Origin: Kordia zhangzhouensis
GTDB lineage: Bacteria > Bacteroidota > Bacteroidia > Flavobacteriales > Flavobacteriaceae
DNA: 64,000 nt
NCBI RefSeq assembly: GCF_001005305.1
Contig: NZ_LBMH01000004.1
Span: 186,001-250,000 of the forward strand
Direction of reading: 5' to 3'
Positions 28,386 through 38,447 of the stretch are shown in pieces (within the stretch, counting starts at the first letter, position 1; the number at the start of each line of letters is the position of its first letter). Made by a program: the position numbers and the translations under genes. The notes under the pieces are model-generated. The model saw nothing but the letters and a program-made list of their open reading frames with translations, had not been told where the DNA came from and made no database searches.

Positions 28386-29348
28386 CTAATTTAGATTCGG
28401 TAAAATAACCTTATTAACAACATGAATTACACCATTCACTGCCTGAACATCGGTTACAATAATGTCACCGGTTCTATTGTTTTGGTCGGTAAAAGTTACA
28501 CCGCCATTTGTATTTATAGTAAAGTTTGCTCCTAATGTATTAACCATCATTCCATCAGTAAGTGTTGTAGATACCACATTTGCTCCAGCAACCACGTGAG
28601 TATTTAAAGTAGCTTCCAAGGTTGCTGTAGGAATATCTGCTAGCGCATTCAACTCTAGTTCAGCTAATAAATTTGTAAATGCTTGATTGGTAGGGGCAAA
28701 TACGGTAAAAGGAGCAGGAGCAGTTTTCGTACTTAATGTTTCAACATACGTAAACGATTCTTCTCTAGTTAACGCTTGAACTAATACATTGAAAGTTGCA
28801 TCTGCAGTTGCAAAAGTAACAACTGTAGGCAAATCAATGACTGCGTTTACAGCGTGAATAATACCATTGTCTACAGGAACATTGGCTGTAGTTACAGCAG
28901 AAGTACCATTTAAAATGACTCCATTGCTAGTATTTACATGCATGTTAATTTTGTTACCAGTCGTTGCTTCTTCTGCCAACGTTTCAATATATCCTGTTGC
29001 TAAATCAGATGAGGTGTTAACTCCACTAATTACGTGGTTTAAAAGAACTTGGGTTAAAGTGTCAACTGGAACGTCATCCAAGCTAGCATATCCATTTGCT
29101 TGTAAATACGAACTAAATGCCGCATTATTTGGAGCAAAAACGGTATAGTTTGTGGTACCTGATAATACGGCTGTTAGATTGGCTCTTTCGAGTGCAGCTC
29201 CTAAAGAACTGTAATCTGGATTTGCTGCTACAAAGTCAGCAATTGTGTTGCTTTCAATTACTACATTAGTATCATCATCACTACATGAAGTGAACGCACA
29301 TAATGCAATAAATAGAACCATAAGGATGGAAGTTGTTTTCTTTTTCAT
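28386..29348 (-). CDS. Fasciclin (FAS1) domain lipoprotein
   Basis: A 320-aa lipoprotein (signal ending FTSC) with two FAS1 domains. The first (about 35-175) has LTAVLSGTTNYTVFAPNNAA and VDNGIIHAVNAVIDLP; the second (about 180-318) has PAPFTVFAPTNQAF and VNGVIHVVNKVILP. Fasciclin domains mediate adhesion or bind small ligands at the cell surface. Its upstream region carries the same 30-bp palindrome as the folE and tetR promoters, which places it in the same regulon. Confidence 0.92.
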   Translation of the reverse strand: MKKKTTSILMVLFIALCAFTSCSDDDTNVVIESNTIADFVAANPDYSSLGAALERANLTAVLSGTTNYTVFAPNNAAFSSYLQANGYASLDDVPVDTLTQVLLNHVISGVNTSSDLATGYIETLAEEATTGNKINMHVNTSNGVILNGTSAVTTANVPVDNGIIHAVNAVIDLPTVVTFATADATFNVLVQALTREESFTYVETLSTKTAPAPFTVFAPTNQAFTNLLAELELNALADIPTATLEATLNTHVVAGANVVSTTLTDGMMVNTLGANFTINTNGGVTFTDQNNRTGDIIVTDVQAVNGVIHVVNKVILPNLN

Positions 29349-29406
29349 AACAATTTATTGCTTTTAATTAATTGATATATAACAGTCTATACAAAGATAT
29401 TTATTT

Positions 29407-29436
29407 TGTTTAATATTTTTAATTAAATGTTAAACA
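29407..29436 (-). promoter_or_regulatory. Operator TGTTTAA-N16-TTAAACA before the fasciclin gene
   Basis: Perfect 7-bp inverted half-sites at 29407-29413 and 29430-29436. A consensus -7 TATCTTTG lies just downstream on the minus strand (about 29399-29392). The same half-sites with the same 16-bp gap occur before folE and tetR. Confidence 0.7.
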
Positions 29437-29489
29437 TTTCTAGTTAATTCTTTGTTAAAAATCAGTTGAAGGTTTTGGTAGCACACTAA

Positions 29490-30791
29490 TTAATTATCAA
29501 TTCCTTCTTTATAGGTTTCTAAACATCGCTCACGTGCAAATTTGTGTGCTACAATTTTATTTGGATAGGAATCTTTTTGGTACTCTGGTACCCATTTTTC
29601 TATGTATTTATAGGATTCATCATATTTTTTAATTTGTGATGTTGGATTGAAAATTCTAAAATAGGGAGCCGCATCACATCCTGTACCAGCTACCCATTGC
29701 CAATTTCCAACATTTTGCGCCAAATCAAAATCCAGTAATTTTTTAGCAAAGTACGATTCGCCCCAGCGCCAATCGATTAGCAAATGTTTACATAAAAAAC
29801 TAGCAGTTATCATACGAACTCGGTTGTGCATGTAGCCAGATTCATTAAGTTCACGCATACCTGCATCTACTATGGGATACCCAGTTTTTCCGTTGCACCA
29901 TGCTTTAAATTCTTCTTCATTATTACGCCATTTTATACCATCATATTTTGACTTGAAATTGTTAGTTACTGTTTCTGGATAATGCCATAAAATCTGCATA
30001 AAGAATTCACGCCAAATTAGTTCTTTTAAGAAAGTTTGATTGTCTGAATCTAGTCCTTTTTTAACACATTTACGAATACTTATAGTACCAAAGCGCAAAT
30101 GCGGACTCAGTTTTGAAGTGCCTTCAATAGCAGGATAATTTCGTGTGTTTTCATACTCGTCAATCATATCTTCACTAATAGAGTATGGGGCTACTTTGAT
30201 TTGAGACTCTTTGAATCCAATATCTTTAAGTGTTAGAGGAGGAAACGATTCTTTTGCAAAATTATCATAAAGGGCTGCACAGTTGACACTTTTATAATTT
30301 TCTTTTGATAGAGTGGCTAACCATTTTTTTGAATAGGGCGTATATACTACATATGGATCTCCATCATTTTTTACAATCTCATCTTTTTCAAAAATAACTT
30401 GATCCTTAAAAGTGTTAAATTTGATATTATTTTCTTCAAGAAATGCCTTTACTTCTTTGTCTCTCTGCGTTGCATACGGTTCATAATCATGATTCGTGTA
30501 CACAGCAGCGAGATTAAACGTATCAATCAATTCTTTAAATACTTTTTTTGGTTTTCCTTGTTTTACTAATAGAGAAGAACCATATTCTTGCAACGTACTA
30601 TTTATTTTTGTTAGTTCTTGATGAATAAAGGTTACTCGAGCATCGTTTTCAGGAAGTTTTTCTAAAATTTCGGTATCAAATATAAATAGTGAGATTACTT
30701 TTTTGCCTGAATTTAAGGCGTGATATAGGCCTATATTGTCTTCTATCCGTAAGTCTCTTCTATGCCAAAAAATGGTATATTTATTTTTCAT
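29490..30791 (-). CDS. phr: Deoxyribodipyrimidine photolyase, class I type
   Basis: 433 aa from the ATG at 30791, which overlaps the upstream stop by 11 bp; the 3-codon longer TTG start is unnecessary. The N-terminal antenna domain starts TIFWHRRDLRIEDN; the FAD domain has DAGMRELNESGYMHNRVRM, LIDWRWGESYFAKKLLDFD and NVGNWQWVAGTGCDAAPYFR. It repairs UV-induced cyclobutane dimers using light. It is the last gene of the operon led by folE, whose product feeds pterin/folate synthesis and so possibly the antenna cofactor. Confidence 0.95.
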   Translation of the reverse strand: MKNKYTIFWHRRDLRIEDNIGLYHALNSGKKVISLFIFDTEILEKLPENDARVTFIHQELTKINSTLQEYGSSLLVKQGKPKKVFKELIDTFNLAAVYTNHDYEPYATQRDKEVKAFLEENNIKFNTFKDQVIFEKDEIVKNDGDPYVVYTPYSKKWLATLSKENYKSVNCAALYDNFAKESFPPLTLKDIGFKESQIKVAPYSISEDMIDEYENTRNYPAIEGTSKLSPHLRFGTISIRKCVKKGLDSDNQTFLKELIWREFFMQILWHYPETVTNNFKSKYDGIKWRNNEEEFKAWCNGKTGYPIVDAGMRELNESGYMHNRVRMITASFLCKHLLIDWRWGESYFAKKLLDFDLAQNVGNWQWVAGTGCDAAPYFRIFNPTSQIKKYDESYKYIEKWVPEYQKDSYPNKIVAHKFARERCLETYKEGIDN

Positions 30792-31269
30792 AAGTGCCAA
30801 ATAATTCAGTTAGTTTTTGTGTACGATATTCAAATATTTCTTTCAGTTTGGGTTGTACCAAGATAGGGTGAATAAGCCTTCCTAGAAAACCAAAAGGAAC
30901 TTTATAATCTATGATGTCTTCCATTTCTATACCGCCAGGGATTTCTTTGATAAAGTGTTTGTGATGCCACATGGAATAGGGGCCAAAGCGTTGTTCATCA
31001 ACAAAATAATGTTTGTCTTTTACATGTGTAATTTCGGTAACCCAGTGGGTTTTTATATTTAAAACGGGTGTTACAATGTATTGAATAATTTGTCCAGCAT
31101 ACATTTTATCTAACTTTTCAGTTAAAATGTGAAACCCCATATAATCAGGTGTAATTGTTTTTAGATTTTTAGGATCTGATAAAAAATCCCATGCTTCTTG
31201 CAAAGAAATGGGAATATTTTGTTTGGCATGAAGACGATATACAATTCCTTTTGTGGAGAATGTGAGCAT
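30781..31269 (-). CDS. SRPBCC family protein (CDP-type cyclase/coenzyme Q-binding-like)
   Basis: A 162-aa protein: LHAKQNIPISLQEAWDFLSD and KNLKTITPDYMGFHI are typical of flavobacterial SRPBCC proteins found beside photolyases. Later strands hold THWVTEITHVKD and FVDEQRFGPYSMWHH. It probably binds a hydrophobic or isoprenoid ligand. The stop overlaps the photolyase ATG. Confidence 0.88.
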   Translation of the reverse strand: MLTFSTKGIVYRLHAKQNIPISLQEAWDFLSDPKNLKTITPDYMGFHILTEKLDKMYAGQIIQYIVTPVLNIKTHWVTEITHVKDKHYFVDEQRFGPYSMWHHKHFIKEIPGGIEMEDIIDYKVPFGFLGRLIHPILVQPKLKEIFEYRTQKLTELFGTYEK

Positions 31270-31275
31270 ACTTTT

Positions 31276-31737
31276 TTAATTATTTATGAGAATATAACCA
31301 TTTAACGAACAGGCAACAAGTAACCATAACAAATAGGGAAGTATAAGGATTGTGTCTCTTTTCATAGAAGCTGTATATCTAATAGTGAATAGTGTAATAA
31401 TCATTAGCAATAACACAAGAGTAATCATGCCTAAAGATACCAAGTGTTGATTAAAAAATAGGTAGTTCCAGCTCACATTAAGAATGAATTGTATAACAAA
31501 AAGTATGATAACGGTTTTTGAGTTTTTTATAAGAGTAAGCTTAGTCATATAAAAGGAAAAACAGATCATAATAGTTGTCCAAGCAAATCCAAATACCCAG
31601 CCTGGAGGAGTCCAAGGAGCTTTGCTTATTTTTATGTACCATTCGGATGTAGGGCCATTATTCATAAGGAGAGTCCCAATACCTAAAGCTCCGAAATTGA
31701 TGATAAGAAAGATGAGTAATCGCAAATAATATTTCAT
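31276..31737 (-). CDS. TspO/MBR family protein
   Basis: A 153-aa five-helix membrane protein rich in Trp. It contains the family block WYIKISKAPWTPPGWVFGFAW, then FVIQFILNVSWNYLFFNQH. TspO proteins bind porphyrins and cholesterol-like molecules and act in photo-oxidative stress. It lies 6 bp from the SRPBCC gene and 3 bp from the SDR gene in the folE-led operon. Confidence 0.95.
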   Translation of the reverse strand: MKYYLRLLIFLIINFGALGIGTLLMNNGPTSEWYIKISKAPWTPPGWVFGFAWTTIMICFSFYMTKLTLIKNSKTVIILFVIQFILNVSWNYLFFNQHLVSLGMITLVLLLMIITLFTIRYTASMKRDTILILPYLLWLLVACSLNGYILINN

Positions 31738-31740
31738 AAA

Positions 31741-32424
31741 CTATAATTTAACACTTACAATTCCACAGTCAATCGTAAAAATTTGCCCAGAAGTAGACCG
31801 CGCTTTTTCAGAAATAATGAAGTTTGCCATATCAGCTACTTCAGTTGAATCTAGAAATTTTTTCAAAGGATGTCGTTCTTTAATATTTTCAATCATCTTG
31901 TCATTACGCAGTAGTTTAGAAGCAAGTTCTGTATTGGTTACTGTTGGCGCTATGGCATTCACACGAATTGAAGGAGCGTATTCAGCAGCCAAAGTTTTGG
32001 TTAGTCCTTCCACAGCACTTTTTGCTGCCGCTATACTTGCGTGAAAAGGCATTCCTAATTGTGTAGCAACCGTACTAAAAAGCAAAATATTAGGGTCTGT
32101 TCCTTTTTTTAAAGAAGCAGTATATTTTTGAATAGCTTTTACAGCTCCAATCACATTAATTTCATAATCGCTTTTAAAATCGTTTATTGTTAAACGCCCC
32201 ATAGGTTTCAAATTGATACTACCAGGACAATATACAAGAGTGTCTACATTGTCAATGTTTGGAAGTTCTTCAGTGAGTACGTCACATGAATGATGTATTA
32301 AATTTGAAGACTCTATTTTTGGAGCAGTGCGGCTGATGTTATGTACTTTATTTTCTTGTAATTGAGATTTAAGAATGGCGGCTCCAATTCCTTTGCTACC
32401 ACCAATAATTACTATATTTTTCAT
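31741..32424 (-). CDS. SDR family oxidoreductase lacking the catalytic Tyr
   Basis: A 227-aa short-chain dehydrogenase-like protein. The cofactor motif is IIGGSKGIG (TGxxxGIG type) and LVYCPG replaces NNAG. The catalytic Ser is in LLFSTVA, but the YxxxK motif reads I-A-A-A-K (in FHASIAAAKSAVEG), so Tyr is replaced by Ile. VNAIAPTVTNTELA follows as in normal SDRs. The protein may bind NAD(P) without standard chemistry or use another acid. It sits in the photolyase operon. Confidence 0.88.
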   Translation of the reverse strand: MKNIVIIGGSKGIGAAILKSQLQENKVHNISRTAPKIESSNLIHHSCDVLTEELPNIDNVDTLVYCPGSINLKPMGRLTINDFKSDYEINVIGAVKAIQKYTASLKKGTDPNILLFSTVATQLGMPFHASIAAAKSAVEGLTKTLAAEYAPSIRVNAIAPTVTNTELASKLLRNDKMIENIKERHPLKKFLDSTEVADMANFIISEKARSTSGQIFTIDCGIVSVKL

Positions 32425-32457
32425 TTATTGAGTTATTTTAGGGTATCTATGAATACA

Positions 32458-32494
32458 TTACAATGCTAATAGTATAAGACCATTAGCATTGTAA
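32458..32494. repeat. 13-bp inverted repeat between SDR and the 67-aa gene
   Basis: TTACAATGCTAAT and ATTAGCATTGTAA are exact reverse complements around an 11-nt loop. No T run follows on either reading, so it is probably an mRNA processing or stability hairpin inside the folE-led operon. Confidence 0.6.
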
Positions 32495-32514
32495 AAAAAC
32501 ATTTTTGGGATGTG

Positions 32515-32718
32515 TTATTTTAAACGTTTTTCATATTTGCGTTTGATTGCAGTCAATCGTTTCATGATATCCATGATGGCAGGATCTTTTTTTTGTTTAT
32601 AAATTTCATTAAGACTTAAAATCAAACGTTTTGCTTCTCGTGTTGCAGTAATTTTGTCGCTTCTAGATATGAACTTCCTTTTTTCAAAGTCCATAACCTC
32701 GGAAAAAATAGGTACCAT
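32515..32718 (-). CDS. Small conserved hypothetical protein
   Basis: A 67-aa basic, helical protein (contains KITATREAKRLILSLNEIYK and MKRLTAIKRKYEKRLK). No family name is known to me. The ATG is 4 bp after the folE stop, and a hairpin separates it from the SDR gene. The frame is preferred over the overlapping one at 32622-32840 because spacing fits the operon and composition is protein-like. Confidence 0.65.
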   Translation of the reverse strand: MVPIFSEVMDFEKRKFISRSDKITATREAKRLILSLNEIYKQKKDPAIMDIMKRLTAIKRKYEKRLK

Positions 32719-32722
32719 AATG

Positions 32723-33424
32723 TTAATTGTTTAAAAAGTTTTGTAATTCTAGAATTTTTTCTGGTGTGTTGAAGGTGCCACCGTAGTAAGAAGTGATCGT
32801 AGTAGAGGAGTCGTCTTTTACTCCTCGAGAAGATACACATAAGTGTTTGGCATCTATGATCACGGCAATGTCATCAGTTTGTAATATTTCGCTTAAATCT
32901 TTTGCAATTTGATTGGTTAATCGCTCTTGTACTTGTGGGCGTTTGGCGTAATATTGTACAATTCTGTTAAGTTTCGATAATCCAATTACTTTCCCAGAAG
33001 AGATGTATGCCACATGTGCTTTTCCAATAATAGGCACAAAGTGATGTTCACAATTCGAGTAAAATTGAATATTCTTTTCAATCAGCATTTGATTGTATTG
33101 ATATTTGTTGTCAAAGAGTGCTACTTTTGGTTTGTTTTTGGGATCTAAACCAGAAAAAATCTCTTCAATATACATTTTAGCAACTCTAGAAGGAGTGCCT
33201 TTTAATGAATCGTCAGTTAAATCTAGTCCGAGAATTTCCATAATTTTAGAAAAGTGGTATGCAATTTTTTCTTTCTTTTCATCATCGGACAGGTCGAAAG
33301 CATCTGAACGCATTGGTGTTTCCATACCAGTGAGTAAATGTTCGTCACCAATCTCATCATGATGAAATCCATTTAGAGAAATTGGACTTTCATGTAGGTG
33401 GTTTAGAACGTCAGCAGTTTTCAT
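32723..33424 (-). CDS. folE: GTP cyclohydrolase I
   Basis: A 233-aa enzyme converting GTP to dihydroneopterin triphosphate, the entry to folate and pterins. Zinc ligands appear in SNCEHHFVPIIGKAHVAYIS (Cys, His) and AKHLCVSSRGVKD (Cys); the N-terminal region is longer than in E. coli. It is the first gene of an operon ending in photolyase. Its start codon lies 6 bp past the proximal TGTTTAA/TTAAACA operator, and a second copy lies 52 bp further up. A housekeeping folE elsewhere in the genome is likely but unseen. Confidence 0.96.
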   Translation of the reverse strand: MKTADVLNHLHESPISLNGFHHDEIGDEHLLTGMETPMRSDAFDLSDDEKKEKIAYHFSKIMEILGLDLTDDSLKGTPSRVAKMYIEEIFSGLDPKNKPKVALFDNKYQYNQMLIEKNIQFYSNCEHHFVPIIGKAHVAYISSGKVIGLSKLNRIVQYYAKRPQVQERLTNQIAKDLSEILQTDDIAVIIDAKHLCVSSRGVKDDSSTTITSYYGGTFNTPEKILELQNFLNN

Positions 33425-33430
33425 ATTTTT

Positions 33431-33460
33431 TGTTTAATTAATTTTATATAAATTTAAACA
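33431..33460 (-). promoter_or_regulatory. Operator TGTTTAA-N16-TTAAACA, proximal folE site
   Basis: Inverted half-sites at 33431-33437 and 33454-33460; symmetry extends to 12 bp per arm (33426-33437 and 33454-33465). It lies immediately before the folE ATG. Confidence 0.72.
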
Positions 33461-33482
33461 AAAAAGAATGAGAAATTATACT

Positions 33483-33512
33483 TGTTTATGTTTTTTAACA
33501 AAATATTAAACA
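33483..33512 (-). promoter_or_regulatory. Operator, distal folE site (one mismatch)
   Basis: TGTTTAT at 33483-33489 and TTAAACA at 33506-33512 with a 16-bp gap, one base off the perfect palindrome. It is 52 bp upstream of the proximal site, about five helical turns, which would allow cooperative binding. Confidence 0.62.
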
Positions 33513-33525
33513 AATATTCGATGAG

Positions 33526-33804
33526 TTACCTTTTGGAAATTTTATTATTGCTAATGGAGCGTTGTCGAGAACATTTAAAACGACCAGGAATGAAAGCGCG
33601 TTTCTTTTGATGTTTGGTTTTTCGTCCTGAAACACGTTTTCTCCATAGTTTAAAGCTCGAACGTTTTATATGGGTTCGCATCAACTCAATTACTTCTTGT
33701 TCTTTAAGCCCAAACTGAAATTCGATAGCATCAAATGTAGTACGGTCTTCCCATGCCATTTCAATAATTCTATCGAGTTGTCTTGAATTTAAGTGCTGTT
33801 TCAT
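33526..33804 (-). CDS. TIGR03643/DUF2805 family protein
   Basis: A 92-aa protein starting LNSRQLDRIIEMAWEDRTTF and followed by IEFQFGLKEQEVIELMR, a helix-turn-helix-like family often found beside photolyase and cryptochrome genes in marine Bacteroidota. The tail is strongly basic (RVSGRKTKHQKKRAF, then FKCSRQRS). It overlaps the upstream gene by ATGA and is the last gene of the tetR-led operon. Function unproven; nucleic-acid binding is plausible. Confidence 0.88.
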   Translation of the reverse strand: MKQHLNSRQLDRIIEMAWEDRTTFDAIEFQFGLKEQEVIELMRTHIKRSSFKLWRKRVSGRKTKHQKKRAFIPGRFKCSRQRSISNNKISKR

Positions 33805-34307
33805 TCTGCGTAATACTCTGTTGTGTTGAGAACTGTATTTTTTTGTGTTTTCAATTTTTGGATAAATGATTTGTTTTCAGCGTATAATTTGTTTTTTTCA
33901 AAGCGAACAAAGTTGCCTTCTGCATGTATGCTAAAAAATGAAGTATTATATATATGTAATTTATAGTAAGGAATAGCCCAAGAATAACTAGTAAGTTTTT
34001 TGTGAATATGAACCACAATCCCTTTTGGACGTAATTCAATACTTCCATAATTTAAATCGGCCGTTGTTTGTAAACATTGTAGCATCTTTGGGCTAATTTC
34101 TCTGATAATCATTCTTTTTGACCCAATACCTTTAAGCATGATACGTTGTCTCCACGAAAATTGTTTTCCAATATATAAATCGATTGATTTTTCGGTTTCT
34201 TTATTTGTATATGTGGTATTAACAATCATTAGGAAGTTCTTTTTCGATTGGTTGTTGTATGTTTTTCTACCAGAAGCTATCACATTGAAAATGCGCTTTA
34301 TTATCAT
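33801..34307 (-). CDS. Conserved hypothetical protein of the photo-stress operon
   Basis: A 168-aa protein without signal or membrane segments. It has a recognisable flavobacterial core, KGIVVHIHKKLTSYSWAIPY, then FSIHAEGNFVRFEKNK, probably beta-rich. I cannot name a family. An internal Met at residue 27 is an alternative start. It ends in an ATGA overlap with the TIGR03643 gene. Confidence 0.72.
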   Translation of the reverse strand: MIIKRIFNVIASGRKTYNNQSKKNFLMIVNTTYTNKETEKSIDLYIGKQFSWRQRIMLKGIGSKRMIIREISPKMLQCLQTTADLNYGSIELRPKGIVVHIHKKLTSYSWAIPYYKLHIYNTSFFSIHAEGNFVRFEKNKLYAENKSFIQKLKTQKNTVLNTTEYYAE

Positions 34308-34368
34308 GCAGACGGGAATTGCGTCTAAAGCATGATATTGATTTTTACTGTTCCTTTAGAGTTCATTT

Positions 34369-35793
34369 TTATGCATCTTTTTGAACAAGTTTATTAATCA
34401 TTCCTCTAAATATAAATCCGTGAAAAGGGAATACTGCATACCAGTATACTCGCCCCCAAATTCCTTTAGGTCTAAAAATAGCACGTTGCCACAGATAGTT
34501 TTTCTCTATTTTAAATTCAAGCCAAGCTTCTCCAGGAAGGCGCATTTCTGCAAACAGTAGTAAGCGTTTTTCTTCTCTGCTGGCATACAATACGCGCCAA
34601 AAATCTAAAGGATCGCCAGCACTAAGCTTCGTTTGATGCGTCCGACCACGACGTAAACCTATACCACCAACCATTTTATCAAGATAGCCTCGTATTTTCC
34701 ATAAAAAAGTAGCATAATACCATCCATTGTTTCCTCCAATTGCCCAGATTTTATCAAGAGTTTGCTCCTCGTCAATAATCTTTCTTTTTTTGATGTCTTT
34801 AAAACATCCATACTCAGGTACTTTAATGTAACGAGAAATTTTTTCACGAAAACGACCGCTAATTAGAGAATCTTTCCAACTAGAGATTACACTATTTTGC
34901 TCGATTTTTATAAAAGCCTTTTTAACCGCTTTTTTGTAGGACATCGGTTGAATATCTAATATTTTATTGATATTGCTCGGCTTTCCAATTACTTCAACTT
35001 TCATACTATCAACCAAGTTTTTAGCCAACTTGTATGAAGTTGTGGTGATAAAGTACAACCAATAAGAAGACAATTTAGGAGTCATCACAGGAACAGAAAT
35101 AATGGTACGTTGTAATCCACGAACTTCTGCAAATTGTGCAATCATTTCTTTGTACGTAAGTGTATCAGGACCAAAAATATCGTACGATTGATTATATACT
35201 TGATTGTTGCCAATTGCTTTGGTCAAATATTCCAAGACATTTCGAATTGCAATAGGTTGCGATTTAGTTTTAATCCATTTTGGCGCAATCATGATAGGAA
35301 GTTTTTCAGTAAGATCACGAATAATCTCAAAAGAGGCACTTCCGCTTCCAACAATAATTCCTGCTCTAAATGTTGTTAAAGCATACGAGTTAGAAGCTAA
35401 TAGTGTTTCAACATTTTTGCGTGATTGTAAATGTTTTGAAAGTTGTTGGTCGTTTACAATTCCACTAAGATAAATGACTTGCTGCACTTTGGTCTTTTGC
35501 ATGTAGGTTTTAAAATGGATTGCGCAATCACGTTCCATTTTTTCAAACTGTGTTGAAGACGACATCGAGTGAATTAAATAATAGGCAATGTCTATATTCG
35601 TTGGAATGTTGCGTAAACTTTCAGCATTTAAAAAATCAACTTCAATTAGTTCTATCGAACCATGTTCTGAGATTTCTTCTGGGACACGTTGCGTATCTCT
35701 TACACAGCACACCAAATAATGTCCCATTTCTAGCAGAATAGGAATGAGTCGTTTGCCTATATATCCTGTAGCTCCTGTAAGTAGAATTCGCAT
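34369..35793 (-). CDS. NAD(P)-binding SDR-type protein with DUF2867
   Basis: A 474-aa protein. The N-terminal extended-SDR domain starts MRILLTGATGYIGKRLIPIL and has VIYLSGIVND and YALTTFRAGIIVGSG. The C-terminal half (from about 320) is DUF2867: IWAIGGNNGWYYATFLWKIR, GDPLDFWRVLY and a final FRGMINKLV. The same two-domain protein occurs widely in marine Bacteroidota with photolyase-type genes. The substrate is unknown. It is 6 bp from the flavin-reductase gene. Confidence 0.9.
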   Translation of the reverse strand: MRILLTGATGYIGKRLIPILLEMGHYLVCCVRDTQRVPEEISEHGSIELIEVDFLNAESLRNIPTNIDIAYYLIHSMSSSTQFEKMERDCAIHFKTYMQKTKVQQVIYLSGIVNDQQLSKHLQSRKNVETLLASNSYALTTFRAGIIVGSGSASFEIIRDLTEKLPIMIAPKWIKTKSQPIAIRNVLEYLTKAIGNNQVYNQSYDIFGPDTLTYKEMIAQFAEVRGLQRTIISVPVMTPKLSSYWLYFITTTSYKLAKNLVDSMKVEVIGKPSNINKILDIQPMSYKKAVKKAFIKIEQNSVISSWKDSLISGRFREKISRYIKVPEYGCFKDIKKRKIIDEEQTLDKIWAIGGNNGWYYATFLWKIRGYLDKMVGGIGLRRGRTHQTKLSAGDPLDFWRVLYASREEKRLLLFAEMRLPGEAWLEFKIEKNYLWQRAIFRPKGIWGRVYWYAVFPFHGFIFRGMINKLVQKDA

Positions 35794-35799
35794 ATTGCT

Positions 35800-36414
35800 T
35801 TATTTGGGACGTTGGTATGAATAACGATTGTGTTTTTTGGGGATAGCATATCCATCCAATCCGTTAATTGTAGCCGTTTCTGCTTTAATCAAATTGATAA
35901 AACCATCATTTTCAAGTAGTTCATCATGAATATACAAATGCTCAATTTGTCCTACTATTAAGATTGTATCATTTTCTCTAATTAAATATTCGCTTACGAA
36001 TTGCATGCCTATTTGTACAGGGCAGCCTTTAACATAAGGTGCTGCAAAATTATCTTTGTATTCTCGTTCTAAATTCGTTTTATCAAATTCAGATATTTCT
36101 TTAGGGTATTTTGCAGATGTATGATGTGCTTCTTTGGTAATTTTATGATGGATATGATTGATTGTATATTTTCCAGTTTCTTTGATGTTTTCGTAAGTAT
36201 TTCGAGGAACAACGGCTGGTCTGGTAATGAATCCTAATAATGGAGGATTAGAGCCTAAATGTGTTACAGAACTAAACACAGCGACATTGGTCAAACCATC
36301 AACTGATTGTGTGCTGATGAGATTTGCCGATTTATATCCCGCACAACTGTTTATTAAGTTGATTCGATATAATTTGTCCATTTGATCAATATCACTGCGT
36401 GTAATTTGGGGCAT
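35800..36414 (-). CDS. Flavin reductase family (FMN-binding split barrel) protein
   Basis: A 204-aa protein with the flavin-reductase fold: NLISTQSVDGLTNVAVFSSV and LGSNPPLLGFITRPAVVPRNT, then ETGKYTINHI. It should bind FMN and reduce flavin or act as a flavin carrier. Its ATG overlaps the stop of the AarF gene (TAATG). It may support a light- or oxidation-related reaction with the SDR proteins of the cluster. Confidence 0.92.
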   Translation of the reverse strand: MPQITRSDIDQMDKLYRINLINSCAGYKSANLISTQSVDGLTNVAVFSSVTHLGSNPPLLGFITRPAVVPRNTYENIKETGKYTINHIHHKITKEAHHTSAKYPKEISEFDKTNLEREYKDNFAAPYVKGCPVQIGMQFVSEYLIRENDTILIVGQIEHLYIHDELLENDGFINLIKAETATINGLDGYAIPKKHNRYSYQRPK

Positions 36415-37724
36415 TATAAATTTTTAAAATTGTTAATTTTTACCTCTGTAGCCTTAAGGTCATGAAGCAAATTATAAAGTCCAAAAAATGTTCTATTCAT
36501 GTATATAAAGTGTTTTGAACCTCTATTTCCATTCATGCTTCTCAATTGCGTGTTTTTGGCATAGCGTTCACCAATAGCTGCTATTTTTCCAAAAAATACT
36601 TCGTCTGAAAAATCAAATGTATCTACATTAAAAGGTGTTGTAAAGAGTCCTAATAATTCATGAAACATTTCGGAAAAGAAGCTTATTTCTTCTTCGGAAT
36701 CATCTTCTCGGAGAATTTCTAATTCATATAATTTTTGCATGAACATTTTGGAATCATTCAACGTTTCTTTGTTTGCCAATTCGAAATAGGGGATGTAAAA
36801 ATCTTCTGGAATGGCTTTCATACAACCAAAATCAAGCACAATCAATTTTCCATCATCCGAAACTAGGAAGTTTCCTGGATGCGGATCGGCATGTACTTTT
36901 CGATATTCATGAATTTGGAACATGTAAAAATCCCAAAGAGTTTGTCCTAATAGGTTTGCTGTTTTTAGATCGGTATTTCTGGCGGTAAACTCAGAAAGAT
37001 GCTCTCCTTGCATCCAATCCATCGTTATGATTCGCTCTGATGAGAGCGAATCATAATAAGTTGGAAATAATATATTTGGCAAATGTCTACATGCATCAGA
37101 AACTTCTTTACTTTGTTTTATTTCAAGTAAATAATTAGTTTCTTCAGTGAGTTTTTCTTCTACTTCTTTAAAATATTTGTCAGAACCTTTTCCTGTAATG
37201 TTAAACATTCGCATAGCAATGGGTTTCACTAGAGCTAAGTCGGTAGAGATGCTTTCAGCAACTCCAGGATATTGAATTTTCACAGCAAGTTTTTTCCCGT
37301 TTTTCTCAGCCAAATGAACTTGACCTATGCTAGCGGCATTTAGAGAAGTAGAATTGAATGAATCAAAAATCTCACTTGGCGCTTTGCCAAAATATTTTTT
37401 AAATGTTTTGATAACTAATGGAGGTGATAAAGGAGGAACCGAAAATTGTGATAATGAAAACTTCTCTACATACGCTCTTGGTAGAATGTTTTTTTCCATG
37501 CTGAGCATTTGTGCTACTTTTAAGGCACTTCCTTTTAGGCTTTTAAGTCCATCATAAATATCTTCTGCGTTGGATTCATTTAAACGTTCTTTAGCTTCTT
37601 CTTCAGAATTAATGAGTTTATCACCATAATATTTGAGATAATTAACACCCACTTTAGCACCTGTAGCAACTAATTTGCTTGCGCGTTGAATTTTACCAAT
37701 AGGAATCTTGTCAATTGTTTTCAT
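36414..37724 (-). CDS. AarF/UbiB (ABC1) family kinase-like protein
   Basis: A 436-aa ABC1 protein. The Ala-rich nucleotide loop is LNAASIGQVHLAE with LAVKIQYPGVAESI; the catalytic segments are VHADPHPGNFLVSDDG and LIVLDFGCMK. The KxGQ motif appears as GSALKVAQMLS. ABC1 proteins support isoprenoid quinone synthesis or lipid handling; photo-stress links are known for plant homologues. It is coupled to tetR upstream and to flavin reductase downstream by TAATG overlaps. Confidence 0.93.
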   Translation of the reverse strand: MKTIDKIPIGKIQRASKLVATGAKVGVNYLKYYGDKLINSEEEAKERLNESNAEDIYDGLKSLKGSALKVAQMLSMEKNILPRAYVEKFSLSQFSVPPLSPPLVIKTFKKYFGKAPSEIFDSFNSTSLNAASIGQVHLAEKNGKKLAVKIQYPGVAESISTDLALVKPIAMRMFNITGKGSDKYFKEVEEKLTEETNYLLEIKQSKEVSDACRHLPNILFPTYYDSLSSERIITMDWMQGEHLSEFTARNTDLKTANLLGQTLWDFYMFQIHEYRKVHADPHPGNFLVSDDGKLIVLDFGCMKAIPEDFYIPYFELANKETLNDSKMFMQKLYELEILREDDSEEEISFFSEMFHELLGLFTTPFNVDTFDFSDEVFFGKIAAIGERYAKNTQLRSMNGNRGSKHFIYMNRTFFGLYNLLHDLKATEVKINNFKNL

Positions 37725-38383
37725 TAGGATTTGATGTCAAATTTTTCTTTAAAAATGAATTTGCCAAAATCAAACAGGCTTTTCAAAGGTGTATTGTCAA
37801 TTAAATCAAAGCTGGCGTTGACTGATTTTTCAATATACTGATCTGTTTTGTCAAAGCTTGGAGACGAATCATCTAACCAGAATTTCAGTGTGAGTAAAAA
37901 TTGTATCCAAGCAGACTCTTCGATGGCCTTATTTTGAATTTTCTCGAATCGTTCTTGATTAAGGTCTAGCGTTTTAAGATCTAAACTTTTTATGAAATCT
38001 TGAAATACTTGTTTTAATCCTTTCAATAATTTAAGTGATTGTAGTGGCTTTTTTTCTGCCGTGAGGCTATATACTACATAGCTTCTATTGGCAGTCAGTT
38101 GTTCAAAGAATGTATAGTAAAAACTTAAGAGTTTATTTCGTGCATCAAATAATAGAAACTCATCGCTTTTGGATAAAAGCGCTATTGTATTGGTTCCAAA
38201 TGTGGTAAAAATGTTTTCTTCTAAAGTTTGAAAAGATGTATAAAACGCATAAAATTTTCCTTCTTCAAAATTATTTTCTTTAGCAAAGGTATACACATTT
38301 TTAGGCTGTTCTCCGTGTTCAAGAACATAATCCATATATGCAGTGATTATAAAATCGGTAGTTATATTTTTTTTCTTCGCCAT
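37724..38383 (-). CDS. TetR-family transcriptional regulator
   Basis: A 219-aa protein. The N-terminal region (about 8-55) fits a TetR HTH with divergent sequence (FIITAYMDYVLEHGEQPKNV then AKENNFEEGKFYAFYTSFQTLEEN). The rest is a helical ligand domain. It heads the operon with aarF, and the promoter region carries the TGTTTAA-N16-TTAAACA palindrome, suggesting autoregulation and control of the folE and fasciclin units. The real binder could instead be a regulator encoded elsewhere, such as a MerR-type photoreceptor. Confidence 0.85.
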   Translation of the reverse strand: MAKKKNITTDFIITAYMDYVLEHGEQPKNVYTFAKENNFEEGKFYAFYTSFQTLEENIFTTFGTNTIALLSKSDEFLLFDARNKLLSFYYTFFEQLTANRSYVVYSLTAEKKPLQSLKLLKGLKQVFQDFIKSLDLKTLDLNQERFEKIQNKAIEESAWIQFLLTLKFWLDDSSPSFDKTDQYIEKSVNASFDLIDNTPLKSLFDFGKFIFKEKFDIKS

Positions 38384-38417
38384 GATGTATATTTTAAAAC
38401 TATGTAAAAATACAAAA

Positions 38418-38447
38418 TGTTTAACTTTTTTTAATTAAAATTAAACA
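38418..38447 (-). promoter_or_regulatory. Operator TGTTTAA-N16-TTAAACA before tetR
   Basis: Perfect half-sites at 38418-38424 and 38441-38447 with a 16-bp gap, 35 bp before the tetR ATG. It is identical in form to the fasciclin and folE sites. Confidence 0.72.

Follow-up and report, generated by a model that had tools for sequence, protein, structure and literature searches.

Regulators of the CarH/LitR kind in the MerR family are the closest described counterparts of the system reported here: a 30-bp palindrome, TGTTTAA-N16-TTAAACA, that recurs in a 64-kb stretch of the Kordia zhangzhouensis genome (C33:186001-250000 within 4.03 Mb; below, the window), and its candidate binder P0001, a MerR-type protein of the same genome. 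According to the accessible parts of the CarH literature, CarH of Thermus thermophilus, Bacillus megaterium and Myxococcus xanthus has a MerR domain, a B12-binding_2 domain and the motifs W-x9-EH and E-x-H-x-x-G, all of which recur in P0001; in both cases the gene lies beside a carotenoid gene, the operator overlaps the core promoter and the half-site (here TAAACA) fits the core TnnACA. The CarH operators are described there as 11-bp direct repeats with TnnACA (PMC8156234, PMC9304148), whereas here the repeat is inverted, with N16 between the half-sites (N18 from the 6-bp core). In addition, P0001 scores far under the NCBIfam cut-off for CarH and the targets are wider here, including proteorhodopsin and FAS1 genes. 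Class II LitR of Pseudomonas (PplR1, PmlR2) likewise has a light regulon with a photolyase, folE, a cryptochrome-like protein and a regional short-chain dehydrogenase (SDR) gene, but its sites read TGTACA-N12-TGTACA, one of two B12 domains is kept, PmlR2 uses a LOV partner, and the available portion of PMC9758184 holds no link to proteorhodopsin. For CarA of M. xanthus two inverted repeats, one of them over the -35 region, were once proposed as operator, which resembles the present case; the same source, in the sections at hand, argues for direct repeats (PMC9304148), and CarA is B12-independent. The inverted-repeat operator and the link to phototrophy are what is new; a system of the CarH/LitR kind is already known.

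We consider it very probable that the palindrome is the operator of P0001, which would repress in the dark with adenosylcobalamin and be relieved by light. That the palindrome is an operator and defines a regulon is well supported, and the computed evidence for the MerR protein as its binder is strong; the control by B12 and light is suggested by conserved residues and gene content, and the link to light that an earlier note on this DNA had drawn is supported to that extent. In the dark, adenosylcobalamin-bound P0001 would occupy the inverted half-sites, each of which fits TnnACA, and would cover the -33 or the -7 region, so that RNA polymerase would be blocked. Light would break the Co-C bond and release P0001, upon which photolyase, cryptochrome, folE, carotenoid synthesis, the TetR-like/AarF operon and the FAS1 protein would be expressed, as would proteorhodopsin in those relatives that have it.

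The window contains four sites with at most one mismatch, at the positions and ahead of the minus-strand genes that the earlier note had given:

29407..29436, no strand assigned: operator of fasciclin (FAS1), located upstream of the gene, exact TGTTTAA-N16-TTAAACA; the ortholog site is kept in the same-genus genome G179
33431..33460, no strand assigned: operator, exact, ending 6 bp ahead of the folE start codon
33483..33512, no strand assigned: second folE operator, with one mismatch to the full motif and none to the core TGTTTA-N18-TAAACA, at a distance of 52 bp from the first
38418..38447, no strand assigned: operator, exact, 34 bp ahead of the tetR-like start codon

The genes downstream are fasciclin (ATG at 29348), folE (ATG at 33424) and the tetR-like gene (ATG at 38383), all on the minus strand. 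Four sites compare with 0.17 expected and with at most 2 in any of 100 dinucleotide shuffles (0/100 reach four), and there is, as had been noted, no fifth match at one mismatch or fewer within the 64 kb. When up to three mismatches are allowed, the window shows no enrichment (21 matches vs 23.8 expected), and therefore the signal lies in near-exact sites only. Genome-wide, the exact motif occurs 4 times against 0 for the reversed motif, which served as control throughout, and the fourth site directly precedes crtI, which adjoins the MerR gene. The exact core TGTTTA-N18-TAAACA occurs 6 times, four times in the window, once at crtI and once at a DASH cryptochrome gene, and all six sites precede genes of the regulon set. 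One-mismatch sites do not exceed the control (full motif 9 vs 12, core 35 vs 78) and are therefore uninformative without context; three of them (L005, L006, L008) were considered as regulon members and taken as chance. The whole-genome scan proposed in the earlier note thus bears out a non-random single regulon for the exact sites and not for the one-mismatch sites. The motif is also kept in the orthologous promoters of G179, where the fasciclin, folE, tetR and crtI sites are exact and the DASH cryptochrome site has one mismatch; folE there has an exact and a 2-mismatch site 53 bp apart, to be compared with exactly 52 bp in the window.

We then scanned 299 Flavobacteriaceae genomes for the motif, the MerR protein and the TetR-type protein encoded in the window, and found 856 exact sites (36 for the control) in 235 genomes. 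The motif was present in 217/220 genomes whose MerR is close (best E at or below 1.8e-66), in 8/21 with a divergent one (E 1e-38 to 1e-48) and in 9/53 without a MerR hit, or 2/27 when only near-complete genomes (≥90% complete) are counted; five further genomes had a very weak MerR hit only. Physical linkage of one site to the MerR gene inflates this association, and the tetR promoter is free of that link: with at most one mismatch it carries a site in 29/30 loci (the 30 best, own locus included, out of 197 genomes with a TetR hit), mostly 28-36 bp ahead of the start codon, whereas the 500 bp upstream of tetR hold no site at up to three mismatches in the near-complete, MerR-less genomes G059, G180, G228 and G297. 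In the incomplete G158, which has TetR and lacks MerR, the best hit upstream of tetR has three mismatches. Same-genus pairs that differ in MerR agree with the association for G030/G256, G047/G269 and G059/G276. At the MerR gene itself, a related form, TGTTTAA-N16-ATGAACA, lies over the start codon; among the 30 closest loci 22 have it. The MerR gene is a better candidate for autoregulation than the TetR-type gene, to which the earlier note had assigned that role.

A matched change in protein and site points in the same direction. A second motif form, TGTCTAA-N16-TTAGACA, occurs in 16/299 genomes, and residue 26 of the recognition helix, read in 74 MerR rows (own protein counted twice), is I in 50, K in 18, M in 4, V in 1 and A in 1. 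An exact C-type site is found in 11/18 K26 genomes vs 5/281 others (Fisher 3e-12, a test that treats genomes as independent, which they are not; moreover residue 26 was not read in all 281 others). At the K26 MerR promoters, 14/17 loci have sites, 23 in all, and the fourth base of the left half-site, left free in the scan, is C in 23/23; two Ile26 members of the same divergent branch (L139, L143) have TGTTTAA. Within genera, G258 (g33, close MerR) has 6 T-type and 0 C-type sites and G032 (K26) 0 and 1, and G006 (g7, close MerR) has 5 and 1, G240 (K26) having no exact site of either type and near-exact C-type sites only. With Lys26 instead of Ile26 the half-site is thus mostly TGTC and not TGTT, the gap being unchanged.

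That P0001 is of the CarH/LitR kind is indicated by its own sequence. It has 298 aa, is encoded at C33:510571-511464, 260 kb outside the window and adjoining crtI, and comprises MerR_1 and B12-binding_2, the latter a four-helix bundle; both domains are found in 24/24 sequences of an alignment of MerR homologues (A2). Similarity to CarH (3whp, 5c8d) reaches E 3e-12, and 4e-22 with a profile. The W-x9-EH motif is kept (W143 and E153 invariant, H154 nearly so in A2), as is E-x-H-x-x-G with the lower axial histidine (E191 and H193 invariant, G196 nearly so), which reads E-x-H-E-I-G in P0001, and the CarH profile alignment spans this and the LGxxxP stretch to profile position 232. Of the CarH/LitR signature motifs GxxW, EH, GxxH and GxxxP, as listed in the accessible text of PMC11796333, P0001 has all except GxxH, where it reads N-E-I-H. 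On these grounds the binder of the palindrome is probably a CarH/LitR-like MerR protein. The earlier note had proposed a dimeric protein contacting two successive grooves; at least two subunits are supported, and the grooves are understated, as the half-site centres lie 23 bp apart.

Several observations weigh against P0001 as a light-controlled, B12-dependent binder. Two near-complete genomes without a MerR hit (G224, G249) have one exact site each, three with a close MerR (G020, G092, G135) lack the motif, and the same-genus pairs G020/G249 and G051/G271 disagree (G271 is 76% complete). A single exact T-type site occurs in 4/18 K26 genomes, the MerR promoters of the Ile26 relatives L145 and L149 carry mixed sites, and K26 arises once on the MerR tree (86/70 support, with the residue 26 column left in), so that it represents one event in the protein. 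The MerR promoter of the window's own genome has only a 2-mismatch site and that of G179 a one-mismatch site. The Rossmann B12-binding domain (PF02310) is detected in 8/24 homologues at E 0.1 and not in P0001, which reaches 65.9 of the 400 bits of the NCBIfam CarH equivalog cut-off, and the inverted arrangement of the half-sites departs, as said, from CarH. The missing PF02310 and the missed cut-off also speak for an alternative in which the same MerR protein binds without being itself a B12 light sensor: like class II LitR or CarA it would be independent of B12 and be signalled by a different photoreceptor or by a redox partner; class II LitR of Pseudomonas mendocina is indeed switched by a LOV protein, as far as the available part of PMC9758184 describes it. 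Against this stands the conservation of the positions that bind cobalamin in CarH, given as W131, E141, H142 and H177 in the accessible text of PMC11796333: W143, E153 and H193 are invariant and H154 nearly so in the 24 sequences, and we regard B12-independent binding as unlikely.

The earlier note had named the TetR-type protein (37724-38383) as the regulator, repressing its own operon, folE and fasciclin. The near-constant site at the tetR gene is in its favour, as are its TetR C-terminal domain (TetR_C_23 in 18/18 TetR-type sequences), a weak match of its N-terminal half to the TetR/AcrR regulator 5gpa (E 0.019) and the mean number of sites in close-MerR genomes, which is 4.02 with a TetR hit and 2.64 without, though the tetR site itself adds one. 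However, the motif is found in 44/45 close-MerR genomes without a TetR hit and in only 1/5 near-complete genomes with TetR but without a MerR hit, the tetR upstream regions of the four MerR-less genomes mentioned above have no site, TetR_N was not detected in any of the 18 TetR-type sequences (Pfam, E 0.1), and the half-site type tracks the MerR type. Co-occurrence and the missing TetR_N led us to discard the TetR-type protein as regulator, a role that we judge very improbable for what appears to be a member of the regulon. Among the TetR-type sequences, 10/18 show weak COQ9 similarity (best E 0.024, a lead only), no COQ9 chain appeared in a PDB comparison at E 1, and the protein beside the UbiB/ABC1-type gene could presumably form a COQ9/COQ8-like pair in the light regulon. 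A single-sequence structure model of it (mean pLDDT 46) was not used.

The placement of the sites relative to promoter elements was compared with the -7 box consensus TAnnTTTG, as given in the available part of PMC9723704. Two likely boxes lie in the window:

29392..29399, minus strand: TATCTTTG (TAnnTTTG), the likely -7 box for fasciclin, 7 bp beyond the operator
38405..38412, minus strand: TATTTTTA, the likely -7 box for the tetR-like operon, 5 bp beyond the operator

At tetR loci TAnnTTT starts 35 bp from the site start in 25/29 (own included), with the full TAnnTTTG nine times at +35 and eight times at -6; TAnnTTTG starts at +15 in 9/12 crtI loci and at +14 in 18/69 proteorhodopsin loci. 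The site thus probably overlies the -33 region or else the -7 box, a position that would suit a repressor. That the repeat is instead an RNA hairpin or a core-promoter element of highly expressed genes is scarcely credible: it overlaps -7-like boxes at many promoters and adjoins the start codon at crtI and folE, yet its distance from the commonest -7-like box varies by gene (+35 tetR, +15 crtI, +14 proteorhodopsin), so that the expected transcript would often start downstream of it; genomes without MerR rarely have it, and its half-sites vary with the MerR type.

The exact 16-bp gap on which the earlier note had insisted is supported. In a scan of 60 genomes allowing 6-36 bp between the half-sites, N16 accounted for 27 sites vs 38 for the 30 other lengths together in five MerR-bearing genomes (G027, G044, G034, G017 and G033, the last with 15 of its 17 sites listed), and for 0/10 in MerR-less G059, all figures being among the matches listed. 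Counts made at N16 miss spacing variants, two of which are TGTTTAT-N8-TTAAACA ahead of a -7-like box upstream of tetR in MerR-less G297 (L103), and TGTCTAA-N17-TTAGACA upstream of tetR in G040 (L110). The surroundings of 210 unique exact sites, T-type or C-type, hold partner sites (at up to 2 mismatches) at 34-35 bp in 32 cases, 43-46 bp in 25, 52-53 bp in 6 and other distances in 11; these figures include promoters that are related and hence not independent, and a pair in which both sites are exact may be counted twice. Such pairs, with their frequent spacings of 34-35, 43-46 or 52-53 bp, point to cooperative binding.

The composition of the regulon was read from all 60 exact sites of 15 genomes with their flanks; L239, which belongs to another genome, is not among them. 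A relative of a regulon-set gene lies downstream of 46/60 sites: fasciclin at 13 (two sites, one gene), tetR at 11, crtI at 10, a 168-aa protein at 7, NmrA-DUF2867 at 3, SDR at 1 and SRPBCC at 1. Of the other 14, classified by eye, 4 precede GLPGLI-like genes (with a fifth similar in size and place), 3 DUF2452-like genes and 3 genes for secreted repeat proteins; 3 have no candidate. FAS1 genes are thus the commonest target in this census; a role of the FAS1 protein as carotenoid binder, like algal AstaP, is kept as no more than a weak idea, the cyanobacterial homologue having shown no carotenoid binding in the part of PMC10147662 available.

Beyond this set, rhodopsin is encoded in 59/249 family genomes; none was found in the window's genome. 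Among 50 of 62 listed proteorhodopsin loci, 25 have a site with at most one mismatch (12 exact and 4 one-mismatch in the first 30, 2 and 7 in the next 20); for ten of these 50 the genome's MerR hit is very weak or missing, and three of the ten have a site (G147, G079, G055, all <90% complete). Loci L240-L242, which have no site, seem by their N-termini to carry a different rhodopsin type. Among the best 80 of 545 rhodopsin relatives in named genomes, a set that leans toward the query because 11/12 query sequences came from loci with a site at ≤1 mismatch, 69 have a site within 150 bp upstream (46 exact, 23 one-mismatch), where other spacings of 8-25 reach at most 4 and base shuffles average 0.15. 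The site is present among Dokdonia, Nonlabens, Kordia, Maribacter, Aquimarina and Winogradskyella proteorhodopsin loci, and 5/6 Polaribacter-titled loci lack it at ≤1 mismatch. The proteorhodopsin gene of G179 has an exact site, and its operator is letter-identical to that of Kordia periserrulae (L250 and L290). At least two sites, with two mismatches allowed, occur in 42/69 proteorhodopsin promoters (L270-L349), mostly 34-35 or 44-46 bp apart, distances that differ by about one helical turn.

These observations make it likely, in our estimate, that a B12-based light receptor of the CarH type operates throughout the Flavobacteriaceae and, through the inverted-repeat operator, directly controls proteorhodopsin, carotenoid synthesis and DNA photorepair jointly, so that the B12 supply, together with light, would gate the phototrophy of marine flavobacteria. 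Proteorhodopsin, a light-driven pump, is reportedly light-induced in Dokdonia MED134. It has been called constitutive in strain PRO95 in the accessible portion of PMC3587595, which speaks against simple light control there. For flavobacteria with proteorhodopsin, the available parts of two genome notes mention a MerR gene that precedes crtI or stands over the crt cluster. Among the open-licence papers listed on proteorhodopsin, Bacteroidetes, CarH and B12, no title or abstract opening reported such a regulon. The proposed control may explain how flavobacteria switch on proteorhodopsin genes in light and, if true, would make phototrophy in a marine group dependent on vitamin B12. The question is testable, since the candidate gene, the 30-bp site, the target promoters (in genera that are named) and the base that changes with a residue are all specified.

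The genes of the window between and around the operators are the following:

28386..29348, minus strand: FAS1 (fasciclin) protein, two matched domains (Pfam PF02469)
29490..30800, minus strand: DNA photolyase (Pfam PF03441, PF00875)
30781..31269, minus strand: protein that we take to be SRPBCC-like, with a weak PF03364 match below the curated cut-off
31276..31737, minus strand: TspO-like tryptophan-rich sensory protein (NCBIfam, below the equivalog cut-off)
31741..32424, minus strand: short-chain dehydrogenase (Pfam)
32723..33424, minus strand: GTP cyclohydrolase I, FolE (NCBIfam TIGR00063)
33526..33804, minus strand: DUF2805/TIGR03643 protein (family hits)
33801..34307, minus strand: 168-aa protein without a family hit, whose relatives elsewhere have their own operator (7/60 census sites)
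34369..35793, minus strand: NmrA-like NAD(P)-binding protein with DUF2867, with its own operator at 3/60 census sites
35800..36414, minus strand: flavin reductase-like protein (PF01613)
36414..37724, minus strand: AarF/ABC1/UbiB-type kinase-like protein (NCBIfam UbiB, below the equivalog cut-off)
37724..38383, minus strand: TetR-type protein (TetR_C_23), regulon member and not the likely regulator

Three minor observations were made on more distant variants. A near-identical 39-bp element with N25 between the same half-sites occurs in three genera (G044:C4:6667, G034:C1:1954820, G017:C3:40410) and falls outside the regulon set. A one-mismatch core site, of a class not above control, lies 47 bp ahead of an open reading frame (ORF) for what by eye is a YceI-type lipoprotein (L384, G000:C5:12015-12044). 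Within the window, a two-mismatch site (833-862, TGTCTATCTTTATATAAAATTTATTAAACA; one mismatch to the core) lies 5 bp ahead of the ORF 868-1425, which is AraC-like by eye and could be a further weak member of the regulon.

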